A stretch of DNA of 64,000 nucleotides from assembly GCA_027315205.1 (NCBI GenBank), contig DAHUYM010000007.1, positions 62,001 through 126,000 on the forward strand. The letters are read 5' to 3'. Position numbers and translations under genes: made by a program. This document shows, one piece after another, positions 1 to 55,544 of this stretch. Position 1 is the first letter of the stretch, and every line of letters starts with the position of its first letter. Source of the stretch: Leptospirillum sp. GTDB lineage: Bacteria; Nitrospirota; Leptospirillia; Leptospirillales; Leptospirillaceae. The notes beneath the pieces are model-generated. The model saw only the letters and a list, made by a program, of their open reading frames with translations, was not told the origin of the DNA and searched no databases.

Positions 1-246
1 CCGCTTTCGAACATAAACGTGCAGAGTGTCCTGGGAATGATGGATCTTTCCTATAGACCGGACGGCGGTGCGACACCGTTCCTCGCGCACGGGATCGACC
101 GGGGCATTCCTGTTGAGGACGGACTCCCGATGCTCCTTGAGCAAGGAGCGATGTCTTTTGAAGTCTGGACATCCCGTCCGGCACCCCGAAAGGCGATGTC
201 GGCTGCCATCGAGAAACGGCTTGGACGCCCGGTCCTCTGGCGATGA
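1..246 (+). CDS. aroE: Shikimate dehydrogenase, C-terminal part (cut by window edge)
   Basis: The frame is open from the first base and ends at TGA 244-246, giving about 81 residues. The text matches the C-terminal end of AroE, which reduces 3-dehydroshikimate to shikimate with NADPH in aromatic amino acid synthesis. The stretch VLGMMDLSYRP corresponds to the family segment for a conserved Asp and Tyr followed by a Pro, and DGLPMLLEQGAMSFEVW is the family C-terminal helix with the conserved Gln and Phe. The N-terminal substrate-binding half lies outside the window. It converges on ftsY, whose stop lies 8 bp away. The assignment rests on recalled family motifs only. Confidence 0.82.
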   Translation, partial: PLSNINVQSVLGMMDLSYRPDGGATPFLAHGIDRGIPVEDGLPMLLEQGAMSFEVWTSRPAPRKAMSAAIEKRLGRPVLWR

Positions 247-31577: not shown

Positions 31578-31643
31578 GGTCCACCAGACCATGATTTCCC
31601 CGTGTTCCCGTTCTGGCAGTTTGCAATACGGAAAGGAATTCTA

Positions 31644-32573
31644 ATGGCACAAGAAGTCATTTTTCGAATGGGCATTCCGGTCCTGGACGAAACTCGCCGG
31701 GAGATCGGGAGGCTCGAAAAACTCGTTTTTTTTGAAACGGAAAAGAAAATCACGGAAATCGTGATTCGCGAACTTTCCTGCCTCAGACGGATTCCCGTAG
31801 AACGGATCCGGTCCATAGAGACACATGAGCTCCTCTTGACGGGTCAGGTCAATCCCGACGAGTTTCCCGTCTTCGATCCTGATCAATTCGAAGAACTCCC
31901 AACGTGGTTTTTCCCCTCGGGATACCGCATCGAAGTCGGTTCCGTCGTGACATTAAAACCATCGGACATCCGCATTTTCGGGGAAACCGAAGCGTATACC
32001 CGAAGAGAATTTATGGCGAAATCGACCGCGGTTGTCGCGACCTTGATCGGAATCAGTCTTGTCGTGCCCATCGGCGGGTACATCCTTGCGGCTGTGAAGA
32101 CAAAGGTCTCGGATCACTGGATCAATTTGCCGATGCGACTCGATCAGCTCCCCCTCGACTCTCCCGTTACCCAGACATTTTCGACGGTATCGGTCAGCGG
32201 ATGGATGCGGGTGCCGATCGAAAAAACGGTCTGGCTCATAAGGCATTCCGGGGACACGGATCCGGATTCCGTGGCCGCCGATGTGTCGATCGGACTTGAC
32301 TCCGCCCTGGAAAAAAAATTCGTCGATCCAAGGCTTACCGCGTTTTCTCCGATATGTCCCCATTTGGGTTGTGCCCCCCAGTGGTTCAGGGACCAGAAAC
32401 AGTTCATCTGCCCATGCCATCATTCCGTTTACGAAATCACCGGAAAAGTCGTTTCCGGACCGGCTCCCAGACCCTTGGATACCTTTCCCGTCCGTATTGC
32501 CCCGGATGGAATTATTTCCATCATCTACGAACAGTTCTCGATCGGGATTCCCAAGAAGGTACGTCTGGCCTGA
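31644..32573 (+). CDS. petA: Rieske iron-sulfur protein with N-terminal PRC-barrel-like domain
   Basis: A 309-residue Rieske subunit of a cytochrome bc1-type complex. The 2Fe-2S ligands are in CPHLGC and CPCHHSVYE (about residues 237-270). A membrane anchor with a twin-arginine-like lead (YTRREFMAKST, then VVATLIGISLVVPIGGYIL, about 117-150) precedes it. Unusually, about 110 residues come first and resemble a PRC barrel (VLDETRREIGRLEKLVF, ITEIVIRELS, IPVERIRSIE). Start ATG 31644 follows AAAGGAATT. It is next to the cytochrome b-c fusion gene, so the two form one complex. Confidence 0.92.
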   Translation: MAQEVIFRMGIPVLDETRREIGRLEKLVFFETEKKITEIVIRELSCLRRIPVERIRSIETHELLLTGQVNPDEFPVFDPDQFEELPTWFFPSGYRIEVGSVVTLKPSDIRIFGETEAYTRREFMAKSTAVVATLIGISLVVPIGGYILAAVKTKVSDHWINLPMRLDQLPLDSPVTQTFSTVSVSGWMRVPIEKTVWLIRHSGDTDPDSVAADVSIGLDSALEKKFVDPRLTAFSPICPHLGCAPQWFRDQKQFICPCHHSVYEITGKVVSGPAPRPLDTFPVRIAPDGIISIIYEQFSIGIPKKVRLA

Positions 32574-32596: not shown

Positions 32597-33988
32597 ATGG
32601 AGCCCGAAAAAGAAGGCAGGATCGTTCGGTACCTGGACGAGCGGATCCGTTTGAAGGCCCTCATGAGCTTTCTGTTGAACGAGCCGATGCCCGGAGGAGC
32701 CCGTTGGGCCTACGTATTCGGAAGCATGGTCATGTTCAGCCTCATTCTTCAGTTCCTGACCGGTATGATGCTGGCATTCTACTATGGAGGTACGCCCGAT
32801 CATGCTTGGGACAGCGTCAATTATATCGATCATCTGACGTATGAAAATATTCCCGTCGGTCGTATGATCCGTGGGCTTCATTATTGGGGCGCTTCGATCA
32901 TGGTCATTCTCGTCGGGCTCCACCTCCTTCAGGTTTTTTTGTGGGGCGCCTACAAGAGGCCCCGGGAAATCATGTGGCTCGTGGGAGTCCTTCTCCTTGC
33001 AATGACGATGGTCGCCGCTTTTACGGGCTATCTTCTTCCGTGGGACGAACGGGCGTACTGGGGAACGATCGTCGGAACGAACATGATAGGCCTTATTCCG
33101 ATCGTCGGACCGGTCATCAAGAGTGCTATACGGGGAGGTGTCGGACTCGGAGCCTTGACCCTTTCACATTTTTTTACGATACACACGATGGTCCTGCCGA
33201 CCCTGTTCATTCTCTTTGTCGGACTGCATATGGTGATTTTCCGCCGTGTCGGTCCCGCGGGCCCGTTCGGGGGCGATCCCCTGACGCTTGAGTCGCAGAA
33301 GGAATTTTTCTATCCACGGCAAGTGTTGATGGACTCGCTGGGGATGTTTGGGGTTTTTCTCCTGATCGCAATGTTGGCCATCATGGTCCCTCCCGGGCTC
33401 GAAGCAATGGCGAACCCGTCGAACGGCGCCTACAATCCCGTGCCCGCATGGTACTTCGATTGGATTTTCCAGCTCCTCAAAGTGATCCGGCCGGAAATTC
33501 TGGGTGTGGTGGGTTTGCCGGCACTGATCGGGATGATCCTGATTTTTCTTCCGTTCGCAGACCGGAATCCCGAGCGTTCGCCATTGCGAAGGCCATTTTC
33601 CGTCCTGGCGACTTTGTTTGTTCTGGCAAGCATGATCGTTCTTTCGATTCTGGCGGAAAAAGGATATAAAAAGCTGGTGCCCTTGGACCGGGATGCCATG
33701 GCCCGGGGCAAGGTGGTGTTCGACCATTCCGGATGTCTTGGATGCCATCGTTTACAGGACAGGGGAGGACGGATGGGGCCGGATCTGTCCGAGGAGGGGC
33801 TGATCGGACATCCCCAACATTGGCTTGTTACACAATTCGTCAATTCCAAAACCAATTTCCCGAATTCACCGATGCCCAACTTTACGTTTTTGAAGCCGGA
33901 TCAATTGCACGATCTGGCCCAGTATGTTTCATCGCTCGGAAGAGCCGGATGGCCGGATCCTACCAAAGAAGGGAACGGGGAAAAGTAA
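32597..33988 (+). CDS. Cytochrome b fused to cytochrome c (bc1-type complex)
   Basis: A 463-residue fusion. The N-terminal part is cytochrome b with paired heme histidines in GLHYWGASIMVILVGLH and HFFTIHTMVLPTLFILFVGLH, followed by the QO-site region with PVPAWYFDW. About eight hydrophobic helices are present. The C-terminal 90 residues are a single-heme cytochrome c: CLGCH (about residue 382) with a later Met candidate in NSPMPNF. ATG 32597 lies seven bases after GGAGGG. With the Rieske gene upstream it makes a compact bc1-type quinol oxidoreductase. In acidophilic iron oxidisers such complexes can run uphill to reduce quinone; that role here is inference. Confidence 0.93.
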   Translation: MEPEKEGRIVRYLDERIRLKALMSFLLNEPMPGGARWAYVFGSMVMFSLILQFLTGMMLAFYYGGTPDHAWDSVNYIDHLTYENIPVGRMIRGLHYWGASIMVILVGLHLLQVFLWGAYKRPREIMWLVGVLLLAMTMVAAFTGYLLPWDERAYWGTIVGTNMIGLIPIVGPVIKSAIRGGVGLGALTLSHFFTIHTMVLPTLFILFVGLHMVIFRRVGPAGPFGGDPLTLESQKEFFYPRQVLMDSLGMFGVFLLIAMLAIMVPPGLEAMANPSNGAYNPVPAWYFDWIFQLLKVIRPEILGVVGLPALIGMILIFLPFADRNPERSPLRRPFSVLATLFVLASMIVLSILAEKGYKKLVPLDRDAMARGKVVFDHSGCLGCHRLQDRGGRMGPDLSEEGLIGHPQHWLVTQFVNSKTNFPNSPMPNFTFLKPDQLHDLAQYVSSLGRAGWPDPTKEGNGEK

Positions 33989-55009: not shown

Positions 55010-55544
55010 ACCCACTATCTAGCCCGCATGTTCTCGTCGGACAGGTAGGCCGGTCTCACGGGGTCAATGGTTTTTTTTTGTCCGGAGTTTTTCGGATAAT
55101 CTTTCGCGCTTTCGGGAAGACATAGACCGTTCATTTGGTCTTTCTCCGGAAGGGGAACCCGTTGAACGGCGAGTCCTCGAAGGTATCCTGGACCGGGGGG
55201 ACATGGGGCTTCTCCTGAAATTTGAGGGCCTCGAAACTCCGGAGGATGTCCGAAGTCGTTCCCGCTGGCTGATTTATTTAGAGGAGAAAGATTCCTGGAG
55301 ACCCGATGATCCGGGAGTTTTCCTGATTTCTGAGTTGATCGGCATGGCTGTGTTTGATGTAGATACCGGCGCTAAGGTCGGGGATGTTTCCTGTTTTTAT
55401 GAACGACCCGGCCAGGATATCATCGGGATTCTATCGGGTGGGCACGAAGTGCTCTGTCCCTTCGTGGATCCGTTGGTACCGAAAGTCGACCGTAGTCGAC
55501 GGGAAATGTTCGTGCGATGGTCCGTTCTCGAACCTTTGTCCTGA
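55006..55544 (+). pseudogene. rimM: Ribosome maturation factor RimM, frameshifted in a T9 run
   Basis: RimM helps fold the 16S head. The ATG at 55006 overlaps the khpA stop and the first 25 codons are perfect RimM (HVLVGQVGRSHGVNGFF). A run of nine T (55071-55079) then leads the frame to a TAG about 20 codons later. If the run is read as ten T, the frame continues as FVRSFSDNLSRFREDIDRSF, then RVLEGILDRGDMGLLLKF and the C-terminal PRC-barrel half, to TGA 55542-55544. So the whole protein (about 179 residues) is encoded across a +1/-2 shift. Cause: sequencing error, slippage or true mutation; see findings. Confidence 0.85.

Follow-up and report, generated by a model that had tools for sequence, protein, structure and literature searches.

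A predicted PRC-barrel domain fused to the Rieske subunit of complex III in Nitrospirota

The PRC-Rieske gene and its neighbourhood

The window analyzed here is a stretch of 64,000 nucleotides from a Leptospirillum sp. genome (contig DAHUYM010000007.1), and all features described below lie on its + strand. At 31644..32573 it contains a gene for a Rieske protein of 309 aa, called PRC-Rieske in the following, which is identified by PF00355 (E=4e-10, above the curated cut-off) and by full-length relatives. A likely ribosome-binding site, GGAAAGGA (31630..31637), lies upstream of the ATG and is separated from it by 6 bases. There is an alternative in-frame GTG further upstream at 31602; nonetheless, the proteins of family relatives align from the start given by the ATG at 31644. 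After a gap of 23 bases behind the Rieske stop codon, the next gene (32597..33988) encodes cytochrome b fused at its C-terminus to a monohaem cytochrome c (463 aa in total; PF00033 at 1.2e-43, PF00032 at 2.7e-12 and PF00034 at 1.1e-7). This protein contains one CxxCH, and its cytochrome b part has the paired haem histidines with 13 and 14 residues between. The layout in the window's family is a fabI-like gene (named by eye), PRC-Rieske and cytochrome b/c, and the order is identical in genome G003.

PRC-Rieske is built, from the N-terminus, of about 117 residues, an RR.F motif, one hydrophobic helix and a [2Fe-2S] Rieske head. The N-terminal part consists of a predicted PRC-type beta barrel of about 66 residues (residues ~3–68; 31650..31847), delimited by the AF2 model of residues 1–116 and its match to MTH1859, and a conserved post-barrel stretch of about 49 residues (residues ~69–117; 31848..31994), which contains FDPDQFEELPTWFFPSGYRIEVG and is marked by its conservation and by alignments with reaction-centre H subunits (RC-H) that reach into it. 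It is followed by the Tat-type motif TRREFMAK (residues 119–126; 31998..32021), whose R120, R121 and F123 are invariant in 23 of 23 aligned proteins, and by a single membrane helix (residues ~130–152; 32031..32099; peak hydropathy window 130–148). The [2Fe-2S] ligand motifs CPHLGC (238–243) and CPCHH (256–260) are located at 32355..32423 and, except for H260, are also invariant across the 23 proteins. In the model of the whole protein, helices span residues 120–135 and 137–152 with a pLDDT below 50 at residues 146–156, and a Foldseek search with this model returned Rieske-type proteins in all 50 matches listed. We are nearly certain of this anatomy, a fused N-terminal PRC module followed by a helix and a Rieske head.

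Judging from the ligand motifs, the PF00355 match and the cytochrome b partner, PRC-Rieske is the Rieske subunit of a bc-type complex III. The NCBIfam equivalog Rieske_proteo (TIGR01416) is not reached (61.1 bits, cut-off 97.4), so that the protein belongs to the Rieske domain family and to this type of complex, and not to that equivalog. An RR motif in front of a hydrophobic helix is what defines a Tat-dependent signal anchor, and export is predicted on this sequence basis; the Tat profile TIGR01409 scores 14.0 bits, below its threshold of 16.7.

The N-terminal part as coding sequence

According to the initial annotation, about 110 residues precede the membrane anchor, and the idea of a domain there would fall if the region proved to be non-coding. 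About 117 such residues were found, and in 5 of 5 pairs tested the dN/dS of this part is 0.044–0.093, about equal to that of the remaining protein (0.036–0.129). The N-terminal profile matches 21 of 21 genomes in the window's family, where the match in G020 is a fragment at a contig end. Within the N-terminal part, the post-barrel stretch is better conserved than the barrel, with mean pairwise identities of 0.70 vs 0.54 in one group and 0.55 vs 0.47 in the other.

Because the start is conserved, dN/dS is low and the domain occurs in 168 genomes, the N-terminal part is protein under purifying selection. The upstream in-frame GTG and the silence of the Pfam PRC family on the window copy might speak for an artefact, that is, a wrong start codon or non-coding DNA taken for protein, but these same three observations rule it out, and its probability is practically negligible. 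The possible refutation raised in the initial annotation is thus overturned by the aligned starts and by dN/dS.

PRC-type fold of the N-terminal domain

The fold was searched by profiles and by structure, as the initial annotation had suggested, and the two approaches differ in what they say of the window copy itself. A Pfam scan of window residues 1–127 gave no PRC match, and the search of the own genome with PF05239 had no match at the PRC-Rieske gene. The relatives gave a different picture: with PF05239, 18 of 26 N-terminal domains give a match at E<=1 (best 4.6e-5), the domains being drawn from nine families, of which the window's is one. In scans of single relatives, the curated cut-off of 21.2 bits was reached in 2 of 9 (eight distinct genes), namely by L024 and by the Nitrospira moscoviensis protein with 21.6 bits each, while a protein of the window's own family (L007) stays at 19.9 bits and that of N. 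defluvii at 16.6 bits. The N. moscoviensis protein exceeds both the PRC and the Rieske cut-offs.

Against the PDB, a profile of 22 domains matched PRC-barrel chains at E 0.0059–0.014 and one RC-H chain at 0.016, and the first unrelated chains (antibody) appeared only from E 0.21. With the wider profile A4, built from 26 N-terminal domains, the PRC chains are weaker (E 0.017–0.11), and ubiquitin-like, unrelated chains are close behind at E 0.26.

The AlphaFold model of residues 1–116 is a beta barrel with a mean pLDDT of 80.5. Per block, pLDDT is 85–92 over residues 11–80, and it is modest in the post-barrel part (66–78 per block of ten, residues 81–110). When this model was compared with known structures by VIA-align, all 50 matches listed were PRC-barrel proteins, mostly RC-H subunits, the types among them being RC-H, MTH1859, CdpB and RimM. 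For example, MTH1859 aligns with Z 8.6 and rmsd 1.7 over 64 residues, Blastochloris RC-H (2wjm_H) with Z 8.2 and rmsd 3.2 over 84 residues, and RimM (2f1l) with Z 7.1 and rmsd 2.2 over 64 residues. The RC-H alignments extend past the barrel into the post-barrel stretch (model 2..107). Identity in these matches is 8–16% and most Z scores are below 8, a range in which a match may reflect a common arrangement alone. Foldseek with the same model gave a best E of 1.2e-3 at probability 1.00, and none at E<=0.001. The sole Pfam hint for the window's N-terminal part was CorA (E 0.089 and 0.071, far below the cut-off), which is contradicted by the model.

From the above, the PRC-type fold is established as a good prediction. 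As Pfam finds no PRC domain in the window copy, the assignment rests on the relatives, on the matches between profiles and PDB chains and on the predicted fold. The PRC barrel proposed initially is therefore upheld by these three lines; the expected profile match came from the relatives and not from the window copy.

Distribution in Nitrospirota

Profile A4 (E<=1e-6) matches 168 of 395 Nitrospirota genomes with a single match apiece, all confined to ten families (f1, f7, f10, f14, f18, f28, f29, f39, f42 and f43), which leaves 227 of 395 genomes without a match to the N-terminal profile. The whole-protein profile A1 (E<=1e-50) also matches 168 of 395 genomes, one each and in the same ten families. 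Both profiles match in 167 genomes (lists compared by eye); the exceptions are G020, which has the N-terminal fragment only, and G365, which has the A1 match only. The A1 matches listed span the profile from position 16 or earlier to 309–310, and in these the module and the Rieske protein are therefore one fused chain. Some genomes within the matching families lack PRC-Rieske, such as G035 (f7) and G375 (f39). Among 30 genomes chosen by hand, 26 contain exactly one full-length PRC-Rieske, many of them with short Rieskes too, and the remaining four (G375, G119, G369 and G130) contain short Rieskes only. A scan of named-species genomes with profile A3 found 141 relatives, of which 80 were kept; their titles are all of Nitrospirota type, with N. 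moscoviensis and N. defluvii among them. In the same scan with the window protein as lone query, no relative was confirmed.

In summary, PRC-Rieske is conserved and is the single-copy rule in ten Nitrospirota families, and it is not private to one genome. The survey bears out the domain as a recurrent one, and it divides the claim that such a part does not belong to a standard bc1 Rieske subunit: to our knowledge the Rieske subunits of solved bc1 complexes have no such PRC part, and 227 genomes have no match, but within the ten families the domain is the rule.

Partner cytochrome b and other genes of the genome

Among the partners examined, the cytochrome b next to PRC-Rieske has a C-terminal CxxCH in f1, f7 and f14, and it has none in f10, f18, f28, f29, f39, f42 and f43. 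The Qo motif in the window's family is PAWY, in which Ala replaces the Glu of PEWY (window 33443–33454; residues 283–286). PAWY was found in 9 of 9 extracted cytochrome b sequences of this family, and a pattern scan of 11 further loci of the family gave 5 matches, all PAWY, and 6 loci without a match. In the other cytochrome b sequences retrieved, where some loci were fetched twice, the motif is PEWY in 58 of 61, with no motif in 3 of 61. The second position of PEWY correlates with redox potential and quinone species, as described in part of the text of PMC9162462.

Contig C37 of the own genome (G000) carries a second Rieske/cytochrome b cluster (L053:5327-10889), which differs from that of the window. 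It includes a 618-aa Pyr_redox/4Fe-4S protein, a short Rieske, a 253-aa cytochrome b, a separate 276-aa protein with APWYF, interpreted as the C-terminal portion of cytochrome b, and a cytochrome of 321 aa with 4 CxxCH.

The only PF05239 match in the own genome (E<=0.001) lies at window positions 55313–55510, flanked by the end of an SRP54-like gene and a ribosomal L19-like gene (by eye), a RimM-like setting. The N-terminal profile has no second match in this genome at E<=1. A duplicate PRC gene as donor of the module was rejected, the sole PF05239 match being RimM-like and the N-terminal profile giving no second match.

Ancestry of the fusion

The N-termini of the window's family and of the other families match each other at 97.3% (E 1.6e-11) along 87 columns, the post-barrel part included, while column-shuffled controls reach at most 2.4% (n=20) and the comparison with short Rieske heads 0.5%. 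By this profile comparison, the N-terminal modules of Leptospirillum-type and Nitrospira-type proteins are homologous.

In the Rieske tree the two PRC groups are separate. Placing all PRC-Rieskes in one clade costs 0.17 log units and is not rejected (p-AU 0.476), and a clade of the window family with the short Rieskes of five families is likewise not rejected (p 0.379); as both constraints survive the AU test, the Rieske tree cannot decide. In the cytochrome b tree, the window family joins short-Rieske partners (support 93/56), and both trees carry long-branch warnings. Cytochrome b identity of the window family is 47–52% to short-Rieske partners vs 41–47% to other PRC partners, and 18 columns unite it with the former vs 12 with the latter.

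A single ancestral fusion would be the simplest reading of the module, within an overall ancestry signal that is mixed. Two fusions, in which related PRC modules were gained independently or a module was passed between Leptospirillum-type and Nitrospira-type Rieskes, would account for the separation of the PRC groups in the Rieske tree and for the placement, the higher identity and the larger number of shared columns that tie the window's cytochrome b to short-Rieske partners. We consider two fusions a minority possibility of real weight, given that one PRC-Rieske clade is not rejected, that long-branch warnings attach to both trees and that the modules match along 87 columns including the post-barrel part.

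Comparison with known systems

In N. moscoviensis (locus L120), a gene for a bd-like oxidase subunit I (PF01654, E 4e-22) lies upstream of PRC-Rieske, which adjoins a cytochrome b without cytochrome c. In L120, L057 and L058 the order is bd-like oxidase subunit I, cytochrome c, PRC-Rieske and cytochrome b, and a similar layout is found in further Nitrospira-type and f18 loci. In L058 a second bd-like gene (PF01654) follows, and in L057 an ORF of similar size. The available text of PMC6606698 describes CIII_1 as one of two complex III copies in N. moscoviensis and the more strongly expressed one, with a putative terminal oxidase and several cytochromes c in its cluster, and expression of the oxidase/CIII_1 region as consistently high. 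L120 fits CIII_1 by gene context, as far as the cluster is described there. Like the window, it has a Rieske protein with an N-terminal PRC domain adjoining cytochrome b; unlike the window, where PAWY and a b/c fusion are found, its cytochrome b has PEWY without a fused cytochrome c.

RC-H is a separate subunit with a helix N-terminal to its barrel, bound to the L and M subunits. It shares with the PRC-Rieske module, as predicted, a PRC-type fold, the cytoplasmic side and a quinone-handling membrane complex, with up to 85 residues aligned among the matches listed. The differences are that in PRC-Rieske the barrel lies N-terminal to the helix, in one chain with a Rieske head, and that identity is 8–16%. 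The likeness is thus one of fold only, and the module does not have the features of an RC-H subunit. In part of the text of PMC8239185, RC-H is described as capping the cytoplasmic (N) side of the reaction centre and lengthening the proton path to the quinone site.

Compared with the canonical bc1/b6f Rieske protein (PF00355; TIGR01416), the ligand motifs, the single RR-led helix and the head fold are shared, and the difference is the approximately 117 additional N-terminal residues. Actinobacterial QcrA also has an extra N-terminal part before the Tat-motif helix, which consists of membrane helices. PRC-Rieske has a weak match to PF19297 (11.3 bits, cut-off 27; residues 114–153), and differs in that its N-terminal extra is, by the model, a soluble barrel.

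Topology and possible role

With a Rieske head that has to be periplasmic and only one helix, running N-in, the PRC module very probably lies on the cytoplasmic side, where the initial annotation had placed it. In the mechanism we propose, the module would fold in the cytoplasm and stay there, while the RR-led helix would be inserted N-in and the [2Fe-2S] head would become periplasmic. The module and the post-barrel stretch would then be held against cytochrome b from the cytoplasm, close to the site of quinone reduction (Qi), and could cap the Qi side as RC-H caps the QB side of the reaction centre. Such a cap might shape proton entry at Qi and steady complex III, and the Qi site would be of most weight in organisms thought to reverse complex III, such as Leptospirillum. 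The available text of PMC5772234 proposes that electrons in L. ferriphilum are transported in reverse through b/c1.

Two observations bear on a contact with cytochrome b. The post-barrel stretch lies next to the membrane and its conservation exceeds that of the barrel, as would be expected of a contact surface. In cytochrome b, 12 columns are at least 90% alike in 33 PRC partners, with the same residue in at most 1 of 14 short-Rieske partners. They include R36, A38, W116, F224 and G226, which were assigned to the cytoplasmic side, and the R36 position is S in 14 of 14 short-Rieske partners. R36 is presumably at the beginning of helix A, close to residues that in other complexes line the Qi pocket. 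The cytoplasmic-side enrichment of the 12 columns is not significant (7 of 12 vs 11 of 32, p=0.14); this test was picked post hoc with a cytochrome b topology assigned by hand, and the pattern may be plain ancestry. The residue pattern is only suggestive, both of contact with the PRC module and of the roles raised in the initial annotation, tuning of electron flow or docking of a cytoplasmic partner, and the likeness to RC-H may be no more than a shared PRC fold.

As the best explanation of the whole, we lean towards a module that caps complex III, or serves it for docking, on the cytoplasmic side and is held against cytochrome b near Qi. The narrower claim, a cap over cytochrome b instead of another role, is tentative; it is favoured ahead of docking and assembly because of the conserved post-barrel stretch, the cytochrome b columns and the RC-H analogy. 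Docking would mean that the barrel links complex III to something other than its own cytochrome b, be it a cytoplasmic or a membrane partner, for example the bd-like oxidase in a Nitrospira supercomplex, or another enzyme. The Nitrospira-type gene does sit between cytochrome b and the genes of bd-like oxidase subunit I and cytochrome c, in the consistently highly expressed region (PMC6606698, available text), but the direct neighbours in the window's family are the fabI-like gene (by eye) and cytochrome b/c, so a common docking partner would be encoded elsewhere, and docking seems unlikely, if well conceivable.

A role in assembly would leave the domain without a part in turnover: it would aid insertion or quality control of the Tat-dependent Rieske protein, by retaining it until cluster loading is complete or by setting the N-in topology. 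That the domain directly precedes the invariant RR motif, with the motif-adjacent stretch as its better-conserved part, would suit this. Against it, 18 of 19 short Rieskes, all from genomes with PRC-Rieske, keep RR.F without such a domain, from which it follows that the domain is not needed for insertion in general, and we regard assembly as improbable. To return to the cap over cytochrome b, its furthest form, in which an RC-H-like cap built into Nitrospirota complex III governs proton and quinone traffic at Qi and aids reverse running, with electrons passing from high-potential donors into the quinone pool, is speculative and rather unlikely to hold in full.

Significance

The Rieske protein, the PRC fold and complex III are already known, and the fusion is undiscussed as far as found. 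In a literature search of open-licence papers, none was found naming a PRC-barrel/Rieske fusion, and "PRC" is absent from the main texts, as available, of the Nitrospira and Leptospirillum papers checked (e.g. PMC6606698 and PMC5772234). A Pfam scan of the N. moscoviensis protein already shows both domains, so this architecture can be seen by anyone who runs one.

The core of complex III, consisting of cytochrome b, Rieske and cytochrome c, is treated as invariable. In 167 of 395 genomes surveyed, from a phylum that is a driver of nitrite and iron oxidation, one of these core subunits carries an additional domain, and the PRC-Rieske group spans Leptospirillum-type iron oxidisers and Nitrospira nitrite oxidisers. 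Its role is open to experiment, since the domain boundary is clear and there are cultures of both N. moscoviensis and L. ferriphilum (PMC6606698 and PMC5772234, in the text available). Such autotrophs are thought to depend on reverse electron flow for reducing power, and the domain would offer a handle on that flow, provided that it acts at the Qi side.
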